Part shown: positions 51,522 to 64,000 of the stretch, one piece after another | Layout: each line of letters opens with the position of its first letter | How positions within the stretch are numbered: position 1 is the first letter of the stretch | Source: Agroathelia rolfsii | Lineage: Eukaryota > Basidiomycota > Agaricomycetes > Amylocorticiales > Amylocorticiaceae | Direction of reading: 5' to 3' | Assembly (NCBI GenBank): GCA_018343915.1 | Contig: JABRWF010000002.1 | Location: 2,294,001 to 2,358,000, forward strand | DNA length: 64,000 nucleotides | The notes under the pieces: generated by a model | What the model was told of the DNA's origin: nothing | Database searches by the model: none | Seen by the model: the letters and a program-made list of their open reading frames with translations, nothing else | Translations under genes and position numbers: made by a program

Positions 51522-51673
51522 CTAAGGGGCGTTCCCCTGGAACCGCCTATGTCTAAATCGCCATGAATCCGTTACCAAAGTCTCCACCTGCGTTAGATTT
51601 TCTACCTTCCGGAAGGGTAATTTATTGAATGTTGTTGCAGAGATTCGCCTTGGGGCGCTCGGGTTCTCCTTAT
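51522..51673 (-). pseudogene. 3' end of gypsy pol, displaced by the copia insertion
   Basis: The minus strand reads ENPSAPRRIS and ends with FQGNAP and a TAG. This continues the chromodomain-containing frame that stops abruptly at 60739, nine kilobases away. The motif NPSAPRRIS after the chromodomain is common in fungal gypsy elements. Confidence 0.75.
51669..51673. repeat. Target site duplication CTTAT (left)
   Basis: CTTAT immediately precedes the copia LTR at 51674, and the same five bases follow the other LTR at 60739-60743. Confidence 0.85.
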
Positions 51674-52705
51674 TGTTGAACTATTATAGTTCTTGGGTTG
51701 TATAGTGTGGCTATATGCTAGCTCACAAGTTACCTGTTGTGAAGCAAACACTTACTTGTAAAGAAAAGTGCAGGCTTGGGTTGTTTCCTAAGAATAGGCA
51801 AAGTTTCCTAGGTAGGAAGCGGTTAGTAACTATGCTATACTTAAGATAAGACTGTAGCCGGTGTCCCTTTGAGACTACCTACTTGTTTCCCTTTAGGAAA
51901 GGCTTGTTGTCTTGTCTTGTAGACTTTGTAAGTCTAGGGTGAAGTTAGTACTCTAGGAGCTAGTCTTGTAGACTATTTAACTCACTATTTTCAAGTGAAA
52001 TAACTTGTCATTTCCAGCCGAATTTGCTGGTGCTTATATAATACAAAATATTCTAATTTCTACAAGATTAGTAAGCCAATCCTGTGCTTATCTAATCCGC
52101 TTAGTAAGAAGGTTTGCTTACAAATCAGCTTATAAATCAGCTTAGTAATATTCCTATTTGCTGAATAATATGCTTGGTAAGCAATCTGTGTGCTTAGTAA
52201 GTAATTTGTATAGTATTAGTAAGTAAAATGTCTATTGATCTCAATATCCTATTATTAGATCTGTATTAGTAATATTTTATAAATATTACTAATATTATGA
52301 ACTTGCTTAGTAAATATTTTGGTGATTTATAAGCAAGGATCTAGGGCGTGAAAAATCAATTAGTAATATTCACAATGATTATTGAGAAATGAATATTTAA
52401 ATAGAATTGTTTAATATTTATGAAAAAGATATTCATAAATGATAAAGTCAAGTGACCTTAGATATGATAATCTTATCTCTGATAAGATTAGATATAATGA
52501 AATATTGAAAATATTAAATAAAAGAATATATGCATATTATTTCAATGAATATATGCATGTAAAGAATTGTTAATATCTCAACAATGAACGGTTGTAAAAT
52601 CATGAAATAAATAATCATGTATGATATGATATTAGATGATTATTTGAAGTATTCATTGGAATTATTGGAAAGATATGAAGCTTGTAAATATTCAATCTTT
52701 CAACA
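51674..52705 (-). repeat. 3' LTR of the copia element, 1032 bp
   Basis: It starts TGTTGA and ends TCAACA. It equals the LTR at 59707-60738 in length and nearly in sequence; I count about seven single-base differences, all transitions. A TATATAAG box is at 52033-52040 on the minus strand. AT-rich and without coding capacity. Confidence 0.92.
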
Positions 52706-52714
52706 CTCCCACTC
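52706..52714 (-). other. Polypurine tract of the copia element
   Basis: The minus strand reads GAGTGGGAG directly before the 3' LTR start. Confidence 0.7.
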
Positions 52715-52724
52715 AATGAATGCT

Positions 52725-55700
52725 TTATTGCTTTAACCATCTAAGATCATTTGTTAGTCCAGCTAATTTTGAAAAATAGCTGTGCTTTGTTTCTGCCAAA
52801 GGCTTGGTTAAAACATCTGCTAGCTGTTGGTTAGTATTAATATACTCAGTCCTAGCAGTACCATTGGAGACTGTTTCTCTGATAAAGTGATGCCTAACTT
52901 CAATGTGTTTAGTACCTCTACCACCATGTTTGGGGTTATTGGCTAGGCTAATAGCTCCTTGATTATCTGTGAAAATAGTTGTTGGATTAGATATATCTTC
53001 ACCTATGTCATTTAGTAGTTTCCGTAACCATTTGACTTGTTTTGCTGCTTCTGTGAGAGCCATATATTCAGCTTCTACACTGGATAATGCAGTAGTATGT
53101 TGTCTTCTGGTTGACCAGGAAGTTGCACCTTTGCACATCATGGTAATGTATCCAGTTGTAGATTTCCGGTCATCTAAGTCCATTGCCCAATCTGCATCTG
53201 AATATGCAGTTAATTCTTTTGGGTGTTGTCCTTGATAGACAATGGCTTTATCCGGGGTTTTGGATAGGTATTGGAATATATGATTTACTGCAGTGAAATG
53301 CTCTTTTCCAGGATTTTCACTGTACTTTGCACATTTGTTTACAGCAAAAGTGATGTCTGGCCTAGTTATGATGGTTAAGAATGTGAGTGAACCAATCATA
53401 CTTTTGTAGTGGGTTTTATTGGCCTCTGTCACTTGGTTAGGGTTAGATTTGAGTTGGATGCTTGCTGACATCGGTGTAGAATATCCTTTTGATTTTTCTT
53501 TTTGGAATTTCTTTAGAATACCTTCACAGTAATCTTTTTGATCAATAGACAGTAATTTCTTTTTCCTGTTTCTATTGATATTGACGCCTAGGAATGATTT
53601 AGCTTCTCCAAGATCTTTCATTTCATATTTTTCCATGAGTTTTTTCTTGAAGTCTTGAATTCGCTTTTTCACTTTTCCCATGATTAATAAATCATCAACA
53701 TATAAGATGAGAATGATTTTATCATTTGGGTCTCCCACTTGTTGATGGTTTATGTAGATACCTGCATCTGAGTGTGTTCTTTTGAAATTCATTTTTTCAA
53801 GTGTTGAATGTATTTCAAAATTCCACTGTCTACCTGCTTGTTTTAATCCATAGAGGGATTTCTTAAGCTTGCAGACTTGATCTTCTTTTCCTTTGACTGA
53901 AAAACCTGTGGGTTGTTCCATATAGATTTCATGGTCAAGTTTTCCATAAAGGTATGCAGTGGTAACATCCATTTGGTCAATTTCCCAATCACTATATGTG
54001 GCTATTGCAAGTAAAACTCTGAATGCCTCATATCTTGCGACTGGTGACCAAGTGTCATCAAATGTATCATTTGTTTGTAAATCTCCTCTAGCAACATATC
54101 TAGCTTTGTAACATCCATCTGATTTAATATTTAGAACCCATTTTCCTTTGAGGATTGTCTTGTTTTTGGGTCTATTAACCAGATCGTAAACATCCCTAGA
54201 TTTTAATGAATCCATTTCTTTTTTCATAGCTTCTTCCCATTTTTCATGGTCAGGTGAATTCATTGCTTGTTTATATGTTCTGGGAATATTTTCGACGTCT
54301 GCAGCCAATGTTAGCAGATGATTTATGGTTGGTTGTACCGGTTCGATTTGGCTTGAAGTGACATAGTCTTTATATCTGGGATTAGGTCTCTTTTCTCTTC
54401 TAGGTCGACTTGTTTCTCCAGGATCTATGTTTGCTTCTGGTGTTGGGGATTCACCTGGGAAATACTCTTCAGAAAAATCTCCAAGTGGTCCAAATCTGCC
54501 TGTTCTTCCAAGTGCTCCAGAAATACTATCTGGCTCTAGTTCTTCATCACGTATTTCAGTATCTCTTAACTCTTCAAGATATGAAATATCTTCTTCATCA
54601 TCTGTTGTAGAGATAGGGTTTGTTATATTCCCTATGTCTATGTATTCATCTTGTTTTCGAGGATAAAGTATTTTTTCTGAGGTAGTTTCAGAACCTGATA
54701 CATCTGCCTCATTGTTTTGAGGTAGCATATATTGAGCCTTTTTCTTTTCTTTCATAGGAAATATGTGTTCATCGAACTTAACATCGTATGAATCCCATAT
54801 CTTTCCAGTAATTGGATCATAAAGTCTCCAACCTTTGGAACCTTCTGGATATCCTATGAAAATTGTTTTTCTGGCTTTGTCTGAAAGTTTATTTTTTCTA
54901 CCTTCCTTTGGAATAGTCATCCATGCCTGGCATCCAAATACCCGTATCCTTGATATATCTGGTTGTTTTCTATACCAAGATTCATATGGAGTTTTCCAGG
55001 ATTGAACTCTGGTAGGTGTACGGTTATAGGTGTATAGTGCCGCTTCCATGAATATTTTCCAAAATCCTTCTTTCATTCCAGCAGTTTTCCTAATGGCTTC
55101 AGCTTTTTCATGGATGGTTCTTTGAACTCTTTCTGCTCTGCCATTTTGTTGGTGTGTATGCGGAATAGAAGTTTCTCTAGAAATACCAAAGTCATTGAGA
55201 AATTTGTCAAAATCTTTTGACATATATTCTCCACCTCTATCTGATCTGATAGTTTTTAACTTATTTCCAGATTGCCTTTCTGACCATGTAACATATTTTT
55301 TAAATACTTCAAGTGTTTCATCTTTTGATGATATGAAGTACATTGTGCAATATGAAGTAGCATCATCTAGGAATGTCACAACATATTTTATGTTACTCCG
55401 GATGGCATTTACTGGAAGTGAGTATAAGTCTGAGTGTACCAAATCATTTGGGTTTTTAGTATGCTCTGGAGATGGAAAATGTGATGCTCTGATAGATTTC
55501 CCTAGTGCACAACCTTCACAGGTTTCATAAGATGTTTTTCCTATATTTTTAGGTCCACCTATGGTGTTTCCTAAGATTTTATGGATAACATCACTACCTG
55601 AGTGTGCAAATCTTTGATGAATTAATTCATAGGGTGTTTCTTCTGAGCTATGCAAAGATTTTGCATGTTGACTTTGTGTAATTGATCCTCTAAGCTCAAA

Positions 55701-57071
55701 ATTATTGTTTAGGTTGATGTATGCGCTTAGAATCTTTTTCTTGTTGATCATTAATTCCATGGTTTTTCCAGATTTTCCAATGATCCATATCCCATTTGTT
55801 TTTTGTGAAATTTGTTGAGGGGATAGTAATCTTTCTCTAGTGTCTGGAATATACCTGACATTTGTAATGTCGAGTACATGTATTCTCCCACTGGAATCAA
55901 TGTGTTTGATTTTGACAGTACCTATCCCTTTAATTGGGAGTCTGGTTCCATCTGAGATGATTGTATATTTTTGTTTTTCAGGAGGAAATGGTTTGTACTG
56001 GTGAAAATCCTTTAAATCAAATGTGGAGTGATGGCTAGTACCTGAATCAACTAGGTAAAAGAATTCATCATCCTGTGTTTTTTCAGTTTGATACAGAGAG
56101 AGTGAAGTATTTGTTCCTTCATCGGAAGAGCCTTCAACTTCTTCTGTTCTTTGATTTGTTTTGGATTTTCCACCATAGTTTTTCTTTCCTGTATTTTTTC
56201 GATTAAGAGGTTTCCAATTATCTATGTGTTTGTCAGTAGTATGTTTAACATACTTTTTGCACTTTTTGCAATAGTTTTTGTTATCTGACTCCTGACTATT
56301 TGTTTTGTCTTGACCTTTAAATTTCCTTTTGAATTTTCTTTGGCCTTTAGACATATTGGACCTGCTTTGAGATTTATTATTAGTGTGGAGAGATTCACGT
56401 ATGGTTTGTTCCTGCTGTAATTCTCCCCGGATTAAATCTATTGTAGCCTTTTCGTAACCTCCCACTGCTCTTAGGATACTACCCCAAATCATGCGGTATG
56501 AATCTGGAAGTATTTCTCCTATGCGTGAGATGAAATCCTTTTCACCAATAGATAATCCCGTAGCATTGGCTCTTGTCTGTATTTCTTGCATTTCTGAGAT
56601 TTGTGTAGCCATTGATTTATCAGTCCTGAGTCTGTAGGAGTAGAACTCAGTATGATATCTTTGACCTTCTGCAAGTCTTTGAGCTTTTGCCGCTGTGTAA
56701 ATTTTATTCCACATTTTGGCAGCTGTTTCTTCAGCCATTAAAATATTTGCCCAAGTTTCATTTACACATCCTCCAAGTAAACCCTTTGCACGATCATCTG
56801 CTTGATCCCATGCATTAGCTAGAATGATTTTTTTGTCTTCTCCCCAAGAAATCCCTGCAGCTGAAGCTAATTCTTGTGGTAGAATTTCTGCTGGCTTGAG
56901 ATCTGGTTTTTGTAAGGGAGTAGGATCATCCTTGGGTAATCCTTTAGAGAACATTGTCCAAATGCGCAATGACTTGGCTAGGAAATAAAATTTAACTGAG
57001 AATTTGGCCCAATTTGAACCGTTGAAAATAGGAAATCCTGAGGGTATATCTTTTATAAGTATTTCAGTCAT
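52725..57071 (-). CDS. Copia Gag-Pol polyprotein, intact
   Basis: A single frame of 1448 codons without stop or frameshift. A UBN2/Gag-like N-terminus (residues 1-240) is followed by a basic stretch and a zinc-binding CKKCKKYVKHTTDKH. The aspartic protease motif LVDSGTSHHS is at about 342. The GAG-pre-integrase HRF/H and C-E-G-C segment (about 485-515) leads into integrase with HSDLYS, FLDDAT and NGRAERVQ (about 545-650). Reverse transcriptase has the YVDDLLIMG catalytic box near 1120. RNase H includes YSDADWAMD and SSVEAEYMALTEA near 1300-1330. Integrase before reverse transcriptase defines Ty1/copia order. The ATG lies only 6 bp after the stop of the upstream accessory exon. Confidence 0.96.
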   Translation of the reverse strand: MTEILIKDIPSGFPIFNGSNWAKFSVKFYFLAKSLRIWTMFSKGLPKDDPTPLQKPDLKPAEILPQELASAAGISWGEDKKIILANAWDQADDRAKGLLGGCVNETWANILMAEETAAKMWNKIYTAAKAQRLAEGQRYHTEFYSYRLRTDKSMATQISEMQEIQTRANATGLSIGEKDFISRIGEILPDSYRMIWGSILRAVGGYEKATIDLIRGELQQEQTIRESLHTNNKSQSRSNMSKGQRKFKRKFKGQDKTNSQESDNKNYCKKCKKYVKHTTDKHIDNWKPLNRKNTGKKNYGGKSKTNQRTEEVEGSSDEGTNTSLSLYQTEKTQDDEFFYLVDSGTSHHSTFDLKDFHQYKPFPPEKQKYTIISDGTRLPIKGIGTVKIKHIDSSGRIHVLDITNVRYIPDTRERLLSPQQISQKTNGIWIIGKSGKTMELMINKKKILSAYINLNNNFELRGSITQSQHAKSLHSSEETPYELIHQRFAHSGSDVIHKILGNTIGGPKNIGKTSYETCEGCALGKSIRASHFPSPEHTKNPNDLVHSDLYSLPVNAIRSNIKYVVTFLDDATSYCTMYFISSKDETLEVFKKYVTWSERQSGNKLKTIRSDRGGEYMSKDFDKFLNDFGISRETSIPHTHQQNGRAERVQRTIHEKAEAIRKTAGMKEGFWKIFMEAALYTYNRTPTRVQSWKTPYESWYRKQPDISRIRVFGCQAWMTIPKEGRKNKLSDKARKTIFIGYPEGSKGWRLYDPITGKIWDSYDVKFDEHIFPMKEKKKAQYMLPQNNEADVSGSETTSEKILYPRKQDEYIDIGNITNPISTTDDEEDISYLEELRDTEIRDEELEPDSISGALGRTGRFGPLGDFSEEYFPGESPTPEANIDPGETSRPRREKRPNPRYKDYVTSSQIEPVQPTINHLLTLAADVENIPRTYKQAMNSPDHEKWEEAMKKEMDSLKSRDVYDLVNRPKNKTILKGKWVLNIKSDGCYKARYVARGDLQTNDTFDDTWSPVARYEAFRVLLAIATYSDWEIDQMDVTTAYLYGKLDHEIYMEQPTGFSVKGKEDQVCKLKKSLYGLKQAGRQWNFEIHSTLEKMNFKRTHSDAGIYINHQQVGDPNDKIILILYVDDLLIMGKVKKRIQDFKKKLMEKYEMKDLGEAKSFLGVNINRNRKKKLLSIDQKDYCEGILKKFQKEKSKGYSTPMSASIQLKSNPNQVTEANKTHYKSMIGSLTFLTIITRPDITFAVNKCAKYSENPGKEHFTAVNHIFQYLSKTPDKAIVYQGQHPKELTAYSDADWAMDLDDRKSTTGYITMMCKGATSWSTRRQHTTALSSVEAEYMALTEAAKQVKWLRKLLNDIGEDISNPTTIFTDNQGAISLANNPKHGGRGTKHIEVRHHFIRETVSNGTARTEYINTNQQLADVLTKPLAETKHSYFSKLAGLTNDLRWLKQ

Positions 57072-57077
57072 TTTGAC

Positions 57078-57802
57078 TTATACAAATTCCCAGGATATAA
57101 AGCTGTCTTCGATAGGATATAGATATATGCTATAATTTTCTATAATCCTGTTAAGGCTTGTTTCAAGGTATTCCTTGTGATGATTTTCTAGGAATTCCTT
57201 AAAGTCTTTAAGGTTTGGACCTGGATGTATGCTATCCCAATGTCCTGAATTATAGAGGTAGATTATATTGTCTAATCTCTCTATATCTATAAGACTAACT
57301 TTGTCTTCAATTTCCTCTGGTGTGAAGTATGGTATACTCCAATTATGAGGCGTTGGAGTGATTTTGATAAGATACCTTGTATGGTTTTGAGAGTTTTCTC
57401 TTACTTCTTTGTCTGGAAATGTGAAAGGTTCAACTTTGTCAAATCTTCCGAATACTCTTGCGAGAATTATTCTTTCTGCACAGAGAGTGAAGAATTTGTT
57501 CTGGAAATCCTGGCTGACTTTTTCCCAATTATATTTGGTACTATCAAATAGGAATTTCTTTATTTCCAGGTATAATTCTGGGTTTCTGGATGGTGTAGGG
57601 AAATCTTTGTGGTATGTTTCCCAACGAGATTTAAGGGTGATATGCCCTTCTCTTCGAAGTTTCTTTTTGTTTTTCTTTTCTAAGAGCTTAAGTGCAGTTT
57701 TGCTTAATTTCTTAGAAGGTTTTTCTTCTTCAAACTCAAAAGGTTTCTGAGTCTGTGTATCTTCTTTTCCTGTGTCAAATAAGTGAGTTTCTATTTCCTG
57801 AT
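57078..57802 (-). CDS. Second accessory coding exon in the copia element (partial gene)
   Basis: The minus strand is open for 242 codons from a good acceptor (TGGATTCAG, exon start 57802) to a TAA at 57080-57078, yet it contains no Met codon in frame. It must therefore be read from an upstream exon or be decayed. It is Lys/Glu-rich at first (KPSKKLSKTALKLLEKKNKK), then looks folded, with RWETYHKDFPTPSRNPELYL and NWSIPYFTPEEIEDK. A donor at 58177 (GTATAT) in the last exon of the upstream accessory gene has the right phase to join this exon and would give a 656-residue product. That intron would be about 375 bp, long for this genome. Not recognised. Confidence 0.6.
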
Positions 57803-58121
57803 CTGAATCCAGAATAAAGGTTTTTATGCCAAAGTTTCAGGTAAAGCTCAATACAAACCAAAATTAAAATGATGAGCTTATAAAAACTTATGTTGGGCAG
57901 ACTTTAAGGAAATTCAGAGAAATAGAATACAATGAATATTTGTGGTAACTAAATGCTATAGTTACTTTCACAAAAATACAGATAGAAGAGATTTTAAAAG
58001 ATAAAAGAAGATTTTTGTAAGAAAATAGAGCTGTATAAAAGATACAAGGGCTCCTAACAACAAAAAGAGATAGAAAAATTTATTGAGAAAAAGAATGATT
58101 CTGATGTATATAAAAAAATGT
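57803..58121 (-). other. AT-rich spacer between the two accessory reading frames
   Basis: About 320 bp, T-rich on the minus strand with several stop codons. It would be an intron or an intercistronic spacer, depending on whether the upstream gene is spliced into 57802. Confidence 0.4.
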
Positions 58122-59677
58122 TCAAAAGGGAGTATATCTGTGCTCCCTGTTCCTCCTGCCACCTCTGTGTGATATACCAGTCTGATTTTCTAGAATCTTT
58201 CTGGTCTGTGCCTCAAACCTGTCCTTGAATTCCCTCAATTCTCCAGAGTGTCTCCTGCTGAAATTTCTCTGGTGGAGATCAATGTCAACAAGCCTTCTAC
58301 TCTGGGTATTCACCAATCTCTTGAGATTTTCAAGTTCCTCCTGGGTCTTGATCTCCTTTGCTTTCTGGATCTCGTTGGTCCAACCAATGGTGTATTGGAG
58401 GCCCCGGACTTCTCTGGTAAGGTCCTCTAAAGAAGACTTGTACCACAAAAGCTGTGAGGATTGGTGTTGGATGGTTTGCTCTAGGACGTCAACTGTCTTG
58501 AGAGCAAACTTGAGGAGTTCTAGTGGTGATGTTAAGACTGGTTGTTAGTGAGGTTGTGATGTATTTAATTTAATAAATCAAATACCTTCACCGGGTTCAG
58601 GAATTTCTTGTGGTGTTGGAATCTTTGCCCAGTCGTTGAGCTCGTGATTTCCTATTGACCAGGGTGTATATGAACGATTTGAAGGTGGAGCAGTTGATTT
58701 TTGCTGACCTTCTGTACCCCAACCGATGGTCTTGTCGATGGGTTCTTCAGGGAGTTTGTTAAGCTCCTAAAAGTGTGTTAGTGATGGTGAAATGATAAAG
58801 TTTTGTTTACTTTACCTGAAGATCACCAATTGATTTATCTAGGGGACTTCTTTCCACTAGATCGGCACTACTGACCAAGGGAGATAATGTGAAGGGGGAG
58901 GAGGTGTCAGAAATATTGATATCAGAGGGTTTTGAATCTTCTTCTCCTGGGTACACAAATTCTTCGTCCGGGTTGTAGATTGAGGCTTCTTGAAAGATGT
59001 CACGGACAGTCCAGCAGGGTCCAGTCAATGGGATGTTGAAGTGCTTGCACCAAACGTCCTGTTGGTTGGCTAATTCTGCTGTTATGTAATGGGTGACTTG
59101 GTCGTGATCAAGGTTGTACTTGTCCTTGTTGACCTCAATATCTGTGATTATAGAGATGTAAGTCGCTGGGGACTCCTTCCTGATATCTTTGAAGCTTCTA
59201 GAAAATTCTTGATATGTTTCCCAGTGGATTTCTGGGTTAATCGTGAATTTGCTAAGGGCCTGGTTAATATTATTGAGGCCTAGAGAATTTTATTAGTATT
59301 TTTTATCCTTTATTTTTGGATTTTTATACTATAATTCTCTTACTGTCTTCCTTTTCCTCGATGTCGTTGTCTGAGTCTAAAAAGGCCTGAAGGAGATCGA
59401 TATCTTCTTCTTGCTTGATGAGTTCAGAGGGTGACCAGAGGATTTCTGTGCCTATAAAGAATTTATTAGTAATTCTTTTGATTTATTTAATCAGTAGGCT
59501 TTACTCTTGAGATCCTTTTGCCACTGCTTGTCAATCTCTGATTGATCAATGGAGGTAGTGGGGTTACTGTTGGCAAAGTTGATTGCCTGGGCAACAGTGG
59601 TGAATGTGTTGGAGATCTCGGTGTTGAAGGAAGACACTAGAATAACAAATTTGTGTTAGTTACTCCTGTTTTATACT
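58122..59677 (-). CDS. Accessory spliced gene inside the copia element, 433 residues
   Basis: Exons 59677 (first base of ATG), 59636-59505, 59451-59344, 59279-58816, 58766-58586 and 58537-58122. All five introns (40-64 bp) have GT-AG ends, CTAAC or CTAAT-like branch sites and consistent phases. The start codon is formed across the first junction: the A at 59677 joins TG at 59636. The protein begins MSSFNTEISNTF and is acidic in the middle (EEFVYPGEEDSKPSD). It contains WETYQEFSRSFKDI and TGPCWTVRDIFQEASIYN. It ends with a long charged coiled coil and an Arg-rich tail (SHRGGRRNREHRYTPF). I do not recognise it. The coiled coil plus basic tail could suit a nucleic-acid or particle-associated role (inference). 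Gag, protease and polymerase are already encoded downstream. Confidence 0.72.
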
Positions 59678-59690
59678 GACTGCCTTTTTA

Positions 59691-59706
59691 GGCAGGGCTC
59701 ATAACC
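59691..59706 (-). other. Primer binding site, half-tRNA initiator Met type
   Basis: Directly after the 5' LTR the minus strand reads GGTTATGAGCCCTGCC. Its complement GGCAGGGCTCATAACC looks like the anticodon arm of initiator tRNA-Met, with CAT inside CTCATAA, not a tRNA 3' end. Drosophila copia and some fungal elements prime from such an internally cleaved tRNA. Confidence 0.7.
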
Positions 59707-60738
59707 TGTTGAACTATTGTAGTTCTTGGGTTGTATAGTGTGGCTATATGCTAGCTCACAAGTTACCTGTTGTGAAGCAAACACTTACTTGTAAAGAAAA
59801 GTGCAGGCTTGGGTTGTTTCCTAAGAATAGGCAAAGTTTCCTAGGTAGGAAGCGGTTAGTAACTATGCTATACTTAAGATAAGACTGTAGCCGGTGTCTC
59901 TTTGAGACTACCTACTTGTTTCCCTTTAGGAAAGGCTTGTTGTCTTGTCTTGTAGACTTTGTAAGTCTAGGGTGAAGTTAGTACTCTAGGAGCTAGTCTT
60001 GTAGACTATTTAACTCACTATTTTCGAGTGAAATAACTTGTCATTCCCAGCCGAATTTGCTGGTGCTTATATAATACAAAATATTCTAATTTCTACAAGA
60101 TTAGTAAGCCAATCCTGTGCTTATCTAATCCACTTAGTAAGAAGGTTTGCTTACAAATCAGCTTATAAATCAGCTTAGTAATATTCCTATTTGCTGAATA
60201 ATATGCTTGGTAAGCAATCTGTGTGCTTAGTAAGTAATTTGTATAGTATTAGTAAGTAAAATGTCTATTGATCTCAATATCCTATTATTAGATCTGTATT
60301 AGTAATATTTTATAAATATTACTAATATTATGAACTTGCTTAGTAAATATTTTGGTGATTTATAAGCAAGGATCTAGGGTGTGAAAAATCAATTAGTAAT
60401 ATTCACAATGATTATTGAGAAATGAATATTTAAATAGAATTGTTTAATATTTATGAAAAAGATATTCATAAATGATAAAGTCAAGTGACCTTAGATATGA
60501 TAATCTTATCTCTGATAAGATTAGATATAATGAAATATTGAAAATATTAAATAAAAGAATATATGCATATTATTTCAATGAATATATGCATGTAAAGAAT
60601 TGTTAATATCTCAACAATGAACGGTTGTAAAATCATGAAATAAATAATCATGTATGATATGATATTAGATGATTATTTGAAGTATTCATTGGAATTATTG
60701 GAAAGATATGAAGCTTGTAAATATTCAATCTTTCAATA
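59707..60738 (-). repeat. 5' LTR of the copia element, 1032 bp
   Basis: Same length as the copy at 51674-52705. The outer end reads TATTGA on the minus strand where the other LTR has TGTTGA, one of about seven transitions. The promoter-like TATATAAG is at 60066-60073. Confidence 0.92.
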
Positions 60739-60743
60739 CTTAT
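60739..60743. repeat. Target site duplication CTTAT (right)
   Basis: Identical to 51669-51673 and immediately outside the 5' LTR. Confidence 0.85.
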
Positions 60744-63700
60744 AAAATTGGGTAATGAGCCTTTTTGCGTGTATATCTTTGGCCAATTCCCAACTCTCTT
60801 CTCCTGGGTAACCCTTGTATTCAACCAAGAATTGCAACTTTTTCCATCTTCCGTGTAATCGAGCATCCCTGATATGCGAGACTTCCCATTCCTCTTCTCC
60901 TTCTACTTCCACCGGTGGGGGTTCTTCTGGGGTTCGTCCTGGGATTTTGCTTTCCTGGTAGGGTTGTAGGAAGTTTACATGGAAGACCTTGTGCATGTGC
61001 CAGTTTTTTGGAATATTGATTTTGTAGTTCAATTCTCCAATTCTTTTAACTACCTTATAGGGGCCTAGCTTTTTAGGGCTTAACTTCCTACTCGGCTGTT
61101 TGGCAAATTTAATATTTCGTGCATCTAGCCATACGCATGCTCCTGGTTCTAGTTGCGGGAAACTTTTCTTGTTTTGGTCATAATATTGTTTCATTGTTTC
61201 CGCTGCTTTTCCTAGAGCTGCTTGAGCTTCTTCTTGTACTTCCTTCAGATTCCCTAACCAATCTTGCACGCCGTTGGTCTTGACTTGGGGTTGGGATAGG
61301 ATTTCCATTCTGGGTATAAAACTGTAGTTTAGTTCGAAGGGGGTGAACCCTGTTGCTGAACTCTGTCTTTGGTTTAATGCAAATTCTGCGATTTCCAGAT
61401 TCTCTGCCCAGTTTGTTTGCCATTGATTCGAATATATACGTAGGTAGGTTTCAATTTCCTGATTTAACCTTTCTGTTTGTCCATCACTTTGAGGGTGGTA
61501 TGCTGTGGACAAGGCTGTTTTGATTCCTAACTTCCGATGTATTTCTTTTATGACTTGGCTCGCAAACTGGGGTCCTCTATCTGTCGTCCAGACCTTCGGG
61601 ATTCCGTGGAGTTTGAACACATGTTTCAGGTACAATCCTGCTACTTCCGCTGCAGTCACCACTTCTACGGTTGGAATTAGATGACACATTTTGGTAAGCT
61701 TGTCTACTATCACCAAAATAGAGTCATATTTTCCTGACTAAGGTAACTTTACAATCATGTCCGCTGTTACATGTTCCCAGGGTTTTTGTGGTGCAGGCAG
61801 GGGTTGAAGTAATCCAGAAGGGGGTTGTCAAGAACTTTTATTCACAATACATTGTGGGCATGTGGTTACATATTCGTTGATGAATTTTGTCATGCTGGGC
61901 CACCAATAATTGCGTGATACTAGTTCCAAGGTCTTGTGTTTCCCAGGGTGCCCTGCTACAGGTACATCATGGAATTTTTTTACGATTTGTGCCCGTAGCT
62001 GGGTGTCCTTTGGTACATAAACCTTGCCCCTGTACAGAATTAGGCCTTCTTCCTGGTTCCACTCCTCAATTCCATTTTGGAGTTTCACCAGGCCAAAATC
62101 CTTAAGCGTTTGAAGGGCGTCTGCCACTTCTGGTTCTGGGTTTGCTTTTCAGATTTGGTTCAGTAGTCCCTTTTCTCCTTCAACCGTGATATAACCCCTT
62201 CTTCCTGCATTGATACAAAACAGGCGTGGACTAAGTACCACCTGCTCCCTATTGTCATCTGCATCTTCTTTGTGGAAGTCAGGGCGGCGTGATAGTGCAT
62301 CGGCTCTACCATTTTCACTTCCCTTTTGATAATGAATTAGGAAGTTGTATTTGGATAAGAACAGGGACCATCGGGCTTGTCGTCTGGTTAGATCTTTCGA
62401 GGTTTTCCAATATTCTAGGTTTTTGTGATCTGACCAGATTTCGAATGGTTCTTCTGTTTCTATTAGGTAGTGTCTCCATTCCTTGAGCGCTCGGATGATG
62501 GCTAGCATTTCCTTGTCCTAAATCTCGTAGTTGCGTTCTGCTGGTCCTAGAGATTGGGATAGATAGGTTATAGGGTGCCAACTGCCGTCTTCCTGCATTT
62601 GGAATAGTACTGCGCCTGTAGCATAGTTTGACGAGTTGGTTTCTACTCGTGTTTTCCTTGTCTGGTTAAACATTGCTAGCACAGGGGCCGTAATAAATAC
62701 ATTTTTGAGTGCTTCAAAGGATTGCTGCTCCTGTTCCGTCCATTGCCATATCACCTTGCCTATTAACCTATCCAGGGGCTTGCACAGGTCACCAAACCCC
62801 TTTATAAACCTTTGGTAATAGTTGGCTAATCCTCTAAACTGCCTGATTTCTTTTACAGTTTTGGGGGTTGGCCATTCTTTTATTGCCTGCACCTTTTCCG
62901 GCATCATGCGGACCAAGTTATAGCCAATAATTAATCCTAGAAATTCGACTTGGTTTGCATTGAATTTACACTTCTCTACGTTCACATACAAGTTGTTTTC
63001 TTTCAAGCGCCGCAGCACTTCTAGGACCAACGCAGTGTGTTTTGCTTAATTATAAGATGCAATTAGGATGTCGTCAATGTAGACAAAGACTTTTCCTAAT
63101 GCAGTTAGATTGGCTAAGATCTCATCCATCATCCGCTGGAATGTTGCTGGTGCATTGGTTAGACCAAAGGTCATTACCATTGGTTCGAATAGTCCTAATG
63201 GGGTCACAAATGCCACCTTGTGCTCGTCTCCATCCCGGATTCAGACATTGTTGTACCCTCATCTTAGATCTAGCTTTGTGAATATTTTGCTTCCACTTAG
63301 CTTGTCTATGATTGTACTAATAAGCAGCAGGGGGTAACTATCCTTTACCGTGATGTCATTGAGTTTCCTATAGTCTTGGACTGGGTGTAGTACTCTAGAT
63401 TTCTTTGGGATAAAAAAGAAGGGGGAGCTCATTGGGCTTTCTGATTTGTGTAGATAACCCTTGGCTAGATTTTCCCTTATATATTCATCCAAAGAGTTCC
63501 TTTCCTTAATTGCCAGTGGATATACTTTAGATCTTCCCATGACTGCTCCTTCCTTTAAGACTATTTTATGGTCCCAAGGTTTTCGTGTAGGCATACGGGT
63601 TGATTCTTCCTTTGAGAACACCTGCTGGTACTTCAGGTATTCCTTCAGTATCTCTGGGTTTTCCTCGACCATAGTGGCGCGTATGTGTTCCTTTCTTAGT

Positions 63701-64000
63701 TCCACTGTGGCATCCTTCCAGTCAATCTCGGGATTCTCTGCTCTAAGCCAGTCTATCCCCAAGATTACATCCTCTTCCCCAATGTCCACCACACTCATGT
63801 GGAGTTCCCTTTCTATGCCTCCCGTAATTAGCATGACCGTAATGTATTCTGTGATTTTACCAATTTTGTTTTTAGAATTATCAATGTTATATAAAGGAAT
63901 TGCTTAAAGGAGAGATTTTTTTGGTATTTTATTTTTTTCTACAAAGCGTTTATTTACAAAAGTTGAGGAAGCTCCTGAATCAATCATAGCTAACGTATCA
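60739..64000 (-). pseudogene. Gypsy chromovirus pol with stop codons, truncated at the window edge
   Basis: One continuous frame on the minus strand holds the protease motif IDSGASSTF (about 63970), reverse transcriptase (63650-62700, interrupted), RNase H (FEIWSDHKNLEYW near 62430), integrase zinc domain (HPGKHKTL to CPQC near 61950-61860), integrase core (TDRGPQF and HPQSDGQTERLN near 61580-61470) and a chromodomain (LQFLVEYKGYPGEESWE near 60800). Eight in-frame stops lie at 63904, 63259, 63241, 63046, 62518, 62149, 61828 and 61738 (lowest base of each codon). No frameshift separates the parts. Most stops sit where CGA, CAA, CAG or TGG would be expected, i.e. C:G to T:A changes. The 5' part is outside the window. 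Confidence 0.88.

Follow-up and report, generated by a model that had tools for sequence, protein, structure and literature searches.

A copia retrotransposon with a predicted spliced accessory gene, a start codon that splicing would complete from the LTR, and a nearly AUG-free leader

How LTR elements share one RNA among translation, accessory expression and reverse transcription is a question that the sequence of the locus described here seems to answer for itself. The window, by which we mean the whole 64-kb stretch of DNA that was analysed, contains on its minus strand (51674–60738) a complete Ty1/copia LTR retrotransposon. A preliminary description had drawn attention to same-strand coding sequence between the 5′ LTR and Gag-Pol of this element, and to introns that appeared at odds with a life cycle through RNA; the coding sequence is indeed present at that place (Table 1).

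Gag, integrase and copia-type reverse transcriptase (RT) follow in order within a single polyprotein, and LTRs, a primer-binding site (PBS), a polypurine tract and a 5-base target duplication are all present, as in Ty1/copia elements. The order of Pfam domains in Gag-Pol is Retrotran_gag_2, rve, SH3_retrovirus and RVT_2, all above cut-off, with matches to gag_pre-integrs and RVT_3 below cut-off, and the translation contains the protease motif DSG. This is not a polyprotein of the Caulimoviridae type (movement protein, coat, RT) but a copia polyprotein with integrase. The LTR pair has 7 differences over 1032 bases. In the 5′ LTR an ATG at 60044 follows the TATA-like motif, at a distance of 29 bases from its start. 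We take the PBS to be complementary to the anticodon region of initiator tRNA-Met, which is known as a primer from copia elements. The insertion interrupts a Gypsy element (60744–64000 and left of 51669), the frame of which reads through once the flanks are joined into an empty site, and which is elsewhere broken by stops.

The element was compared with copies within one genome (37.7 Mb, 8 contigs), in which we distinguish type A (the window's element), type B (the type of L035–L038) and type C (copy L041 on contig C7). Gag-Pol is full-length and stop-free in 4 of 37 Gag-Pol rows. A divergent subfamily, formed by L041 and L042, is located on contig C7 at about 8 kb from one end and 86 kb from the other, and further copies are found near the ends of contigs C3, C4 and C5; a subtelomeric preference or duplication is possible.

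Table 1. Features of the copia element and its accessory region, in window coordinates.
Feature	Position	Strand	Detail
Target-site duplication CTTAT, left copy	51669..51673	.	read directly
3′ LTR	51674..52705	-	
Polypurine tract GAGTGGGAG	52706..52714	-	assigned by position and composition
Gag-Pol	52725..57071	-	1448 codons, open
AUG-free leader	57072..59701	-	all three frames
ORF2	57078..57812	-	244 codons from putative CTG; open frame reaches 57836
Hairpin before ORF2	57938..57974	-	between ORF1 stop and ORF2
ORF1 coding exon 5 with stop	58122..58537	-	
ORF1 coding exon 4	58586..58766	-	
ORF1 coding exon 3	58816..59279	-	
ORF1 coding exon 2	59344..59451	-	
ORF1 coding exon 1	59505..59636	-	opens with TG of split start codon
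Leader intron (predicted)	59637..59788	-	donor ACAA/GTAAGT in U5; acceptor CTAAC...TTCTAG/TG past PBS
uORF ATG AGC CCT GCC TAA	59688..59702	-	four codons, overlaps PBS
Primer-binding site GGTTATGAGCCCTGC	59692..59706	-	directly inside 5′ LTR
5′ LTR	59707..60738	-	TATATAA within at 60073-60067
Target-site duplication CTTAT, right copy	60739..60743	.	read directly

The 433-codon spliced gene of the preliminary description, here called ORF1 (minus strand, 59636–58122), is confirmed, with GT donors, AG acceptors, matching phases and CTAA(C/T)-like branch motifs. The six exons previously assigned to it are reached only when a leader exon with a donor in the LTR is counted; the coding exons are five, separated in type A by introns of 48–64 bases. 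Introns this short, together with the CTAAC-like branch motifs, would fit a fungal genome. ORF1 has no ATG in the DNA. Its start codon is split between an A at 59789, in the LTR donor exon, and a TG at 59636, and the join of donor to acceptor reads ACA-ATG-TCT, the start of ORF1. The GTAAGT at 59788 behind ACAA is the only GTAAGT from the outer end of the LTR to position 57000, and the 152-base leader intron would take out the end of U5, the PBS and a short upstream ORF (uORF). Among the 21 copies with a PBS pattern (L030, L039, L042 and L044 had none), the donor ACAAGTAAGT is kept in 19 and missing in L032 and L043, and the acceptor TAG/TG is kept in all 21. The donor is present despite several strongly different U5 surroundings, and is also kept in type C, whose Gag-Pol is 65% identical. 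A start codon that splicing would make from the LTR is new and goes beyond the preliminary description, which had missed both this LTR-derived start and the AUG-free leader.

ORF1 encodes 433 residues in type A, 428 in B and 485 in C, and its frames, splice phases and C-terminal tail recur in all three types. The A and B proteins are 52% identical (dN 0.42, dS 2.75), and ORF1 is, by the resulting dN/dS of about 0.15, under purifying selection, this value coming from one method (a second gave none) with dS near saturation. The A and C proteins are 34% identical with a dN/dS of 0.29, and the B–C pair gave no dN/dS value; for ORF1, conservation in other copies at dN/dS below 1 is thus found. Exon 3 is stop-free in 22 of 32 matched places, fragments included, and both copies on contig C7 carry an in-frame TAG within exon 5. 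Structure prediction makes residues 11–110 of exon 3 helical with good confidence. No Pfam family matched the full spliced ORF1, single ORF1 exons and ORF2 gave Pfam matches below cut-off only, with none above the curated cut-off, and no relatives of ORF1 or ORF2 outside this genome were found in Pfam, a protein database or the PDB, which agrees with the earlier impression that the accessory proteins are unlike known families. Type A intron 2 (59280–59343) has no counterpart in B, and an intron in B (L037, reverse strand 2051–2108) is missing from A; on these gene models, introns have been gained or lost inside a gene of a retrotransposon.

The 2634-base leader of type A, from LTR to Gag-Pol, contains one ATG in any frame, compared to 28.4 expected from dinucleotides, with similar depletion in type B (1 versus 24.1 expected) and in the type C copy (6 versus 35.2). 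ATG is the rarest of the 64 trinucleotides in all five leaders tested. As a control, Gag-Pol of type A has 107 ATG against 95.7 expected, and CAT, the reverse complement of ATG, occurs 43 times in the type A leader, close to the 52.9 expected. Of 11748 other, overlapping windows of this size, taken from both strands of the 64-kb window, none has fewer than 27 ATGs, and the AUG-free leader is therefore not due to chance; its longest ATG-free run is 2631 bases, compared to 447 elsewhere on either strand. The one ATG, which opens the uORF, reads as dictated by the PBS. The uORF is closed after four codons in 19 of 21 copies (with GAC in type C), the other 2 having no closed uORF.

Apart from the start codon, ORF1 and ORF2 are without methionine in types A, B and C, whereas Gag-Pol has 31 in 1447 codons. 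The lack of ATG cannot be put down to protein composition alone, since out-of-frame ATGs are also absent from ORF1 when set against synonymous shuffling: type A has 0 versus 4.8 (1 of 1000 shuffles as low) and type B 0 versus 5.5 (none of 1000), with a weaker signal in type C (3 versus 7.3 expected; 29 of 1000). For ORF2 the same shuffling has no power (139, 172 and 104 of 1000 as low), and Gag-Pol shows no depletion (75 versus 61).

Leader ATGs were counted from PBS to Gag in the 14 of 25 copies that have both anchors, the other 11 being cut or damaged. The PBS ATG is the sole one in 7 of the 14; the remaining copies have 2 (L025, L036), 3 (L028), 5 (L021) or 6 (L022, L041), and L033, which carries an insertion, has 30, of which the 29 beyond the PBS one all lie at leader positions 1277–2080. 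As for the cut or damaged copies, L043 has 2 ATGs in a full leader, the first 2450 leader bases contain 1 (L024), 7 (L026), 4 (L031) and 4 (L032), and the 1600 bases before Gag contain 3 (L030) and 2 (L042). L027 and L029 have 9 and 15, in stretches that run into other DNA (matches end at leader 1174 and 1053, respectively), and L039 and L044, with no anchors, gave no count. Across 744 substitutions between A and B (L037), no ATG has been gained on either side, against an expectation of about 34 under neutral change with an assumed transition bias. On the same expectation (in brackets), gained ATGs number 0 (5.2) in L023, 1 (6.4) in L025, 2 (18.1) in L028, 1 (33.5) in L036 and 5 (57.7) in L041, and the type A copies L021 and L022 have gained 4 and 5 versus 3.6 and 5.1, as neutral sequence would.

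Between ORF1 and Gag-Pol lies a second frame, ORF2, previously described as a 242-codon exon; the frame is open as claimed, but runs for 252 codons from stop to stop, without any methionine. ORF2 lengths are 244 (A), 243 (B) and 259 (C) codons. ORF2 ends, in types A and B, with a stop 6 bases upstream of the Gag-Pol ATG and in the same frame; in type C the stop is 1 base away and in another frame. The frame opens 7 to 14 codons upstream of an aligned NTG codon, the contexts of which are ATT-CTG-GAT (A), ATA-TTG-GCA (B) and AAG-GTG-GAT (C), position -3 being A and position +4 being G in every case. Such a codon, near the frame opening and in this context, would be in keeping with weak initiation on unspliced RNA, and from these three sequence types we lean towards a near-cognate NTG as the beginning of ORF2. 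The A and B versions are 89% identical (dN/dS 0.33–0.39), and ORF2 is stop-free in 16 of 36 matched places, fragments included. The hairpin before ORF2 is common to types A and B, with one pair exchanged (A-T to G-C), and is weakly more stable than shuffles. A very weak ORF2-like match elsewhere in the genome (G000:C2:5089947-5090411; 23% identity, 9 stops) is possibly an old ORF2 relative.

It is likely, from the arrangement of these features, that one transcript is used in two ways, spliced RNA serving ORF1 and unspliced RNA serving as genome and Gag-Pol mRNA with leaky expression of ORF2. Splicing of the leader intron would join U5 to the exon behind the PBS and make the ORF1 AUG, and as this AUG is created by splicing, ORF1 could be made only afterwards. 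The spliced RNA would have lost PBS and uORF, so that it would yield ORF1 protein but could not be reverse transcribed. On the unspliced RNA, ribosomes would scan about 2.6 kb of AUG-free sequence, passing the four-codon uORF forced by the PBS, may start leakily at a near-cognate CUG, UUG or GUG to make ORF2, and would finally reach the Gag-Pol AUG. The need for this RNA to be scanned as far as Gag-Pol would explain why AUG has been purged in between, introns and both frames included; the accessory frames ahead of the polyprotein are free of internal AUG, as leaky scanning demands. The scanned distance of 2.6 kb is long, and counts against the model. Splicing would then probably decide which proteins come from one transcript, and the introns, rightly noted as sitting uneasily with an RNA life cycle, would find an answer, since the first of them deletes the PBS and a spliced RNA that cannot be primed is no template. 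What can be read from sequence is the gene models, the scarcity of AUG, the conserved donor, acceptor and frames, and selection on ORF1; splicing, scanning and the NUG start of ORF2 are what we infer. With less assurance, we also incline to a fuller reading in which a single splicing event acts as a complete switch (start codon gained, PBS and uORF lost), one promoter supplies the genome as well as three proteins, and elements swap the accessory module by recombination, in the manner of host-facing viral genes.

ORF2 might instead be the last exon of ORF1, through a junction at 58177/57803 or similar, giving one 656-residue protein while the AUG-free leader still serves Gag-Pol. In type A this junction is in phase and open, ORF2 has no ATG, and phase-1 AG acceptors can be seen by eye near the ORF2 start in A, B and C. 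The alternative is nevertheless rather unlikely, as the donor place, GGTATATC or GGTACATC in type A, reads GGAACGTC or GGAACATC in 6 aligned type B copies (junction and NTG could be aligned in 15 of 25 copies, the other 10 having no anchor), and the intron would be 375 bases long, far from the size of the other coding introns of type A. With no GT at the candidate donor in type B, and with the ORF1 tail and stop past the donor common to A, B and C, ORF1 most likely ends at 58122, and the fusion of its last exon to the 242-codon frame finds no support as a conserved arrangement.

A different challenge concerns scanning itself: Gag-Pol could be reached by internal entry, or translated from a different RNA, either spliced or with an internal start, and ATG could be lacking for a separate reason, such as selection to avoid false starts on antisense or truncated RNAs. 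A hairpin does lie before ORF2, but with internal entry, or with splicing that skips the leader, an AUG in ORF1 would do no harm, and the ATG deficit nevertheless extends to exons, introns and all frames; CAT is not depleted in the same way, and a scan from 58520 to the Gag ATG found no CTAAC...AG-type acceptor. We consider this explanation improbable. That the accessory frames are functionless remains of host sequence, captured and since decayed, is scarcely credible: stops do occur in many copies (for ORF2 in 20 of the 36 matched places), but the low A–B dN/dS of ORF1, the recurrence of frames, phases and tail in A, B and C, and the AUG depletion all argue against decay.

The two-way use of one transcript is thus our preferred reading, and the accessory region that it concerns has a history of its own. 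Gag-Pol of types A and B is 99% identical, with a dN/dS of about 0.1. Between A and B (L037) identity is 98–99% in the LTR, 51–74% from the PBS to the start of ORF2, and 92–100% beyond; judging from these values the accessory module is either exchanged between elements or evolving much faster than the rest, and the sharp identity boundaries would favour exchange. Copy L028 shows another pattern, with identities of 80–94% across ORF1 and of 64% for part of ORF2, the comparison beyond its Gag start being spoiled by an insertion. The end of U5 (LTR about 890–1032; e.g. L021, L025, L031) occurs in strongly different versions on near-identical LTR bodies, which may be read as a sign of recombination between elements. 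Divergent accessory genes with near-identical Gag-Pol point to module exchange or host conflict. As types A and B pair such different ORF1 proteins with nearly the same Gag-Pol, ORF1 seems not to be tied to Gag, and on this ground we tentatively guess at an accessory protein that forms oligomers, has a basic tail containing Arg/Gly, and plays a host-side role on unspliced RNA, which might be export, silencing escape or protection.

Accessory genes of this kind would stay hidden, since gene finders need a start codon and the frames contain no ATG, and long AUG-free runs between LTR and Gag offer a searchable mark of how widespread the strategy is. In the parts of the open-access literature that were available, we found no copia element in which the accessory region is AUG-free or a start codon is spliced from the LTR. 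Closest in translation are RTBV and the badnaviruses, for which the available text describes an ORF I and an ORF II that lack AUG and are passed by leaky scanning and, in RTBV, a first accessory frame starting at AUU, about 900 nt scanned and a Met-tRNA primer site (PMC5902531). The copia element shares with them accessory frames upstream of the polyprotein that are purged of internal AUG, and the Met-tRNA primer site; it differs in a leader of about 2.6 kb with introns and in a first frame whose AUG would arise by splicing only, and we found no protein homology between the two sets of accessory frames. In green-algal bicistronic genes AUG is depleted before the downstream ORF, and experiments favour leaky scanning (PMC11892635, in the text available). 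Unlike the copia element, these are cellular genes, and the same text mentions no start codon made by splicing.

Splicing also separates RNA roles in BARE and copia, where a spliced subgenomic RNA favours Gag (PMC3735527, in the portion available). The present element likewise appears to be a copia-type element that divides RNA roles by splicing, but here splicing would yield an accessory protein upstream of Gag and delete the PBS. Ogre elements have an ORF1 upstream of gag, and foamy viruses have a splice donor upstream of the PBS. Bdelloid rotifer LTR elements carry extra ORF3s, which are spliced (PMC5408684, in the portion available). These three groups resemble our element in carrying additional genes, which in the rotifer elements and the retroviruses are spliced, and differ from it in position, superfamily and protein content, and the accounts available mention no AUG-free leader for them. 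The likeness to complex retroviruses suggested in the preliminary description stands as an analogy of expression strategy and not beyond that; at the level of sequence there is support for a copia element in which an accessory gene is spliced and the genome is left unspliced, the splice sites and phases being conserved. Our best reading is of a copia element whose strategy would unite leaky scanning of the badnavirus kind with accessory splicing of the retrovirus kind.
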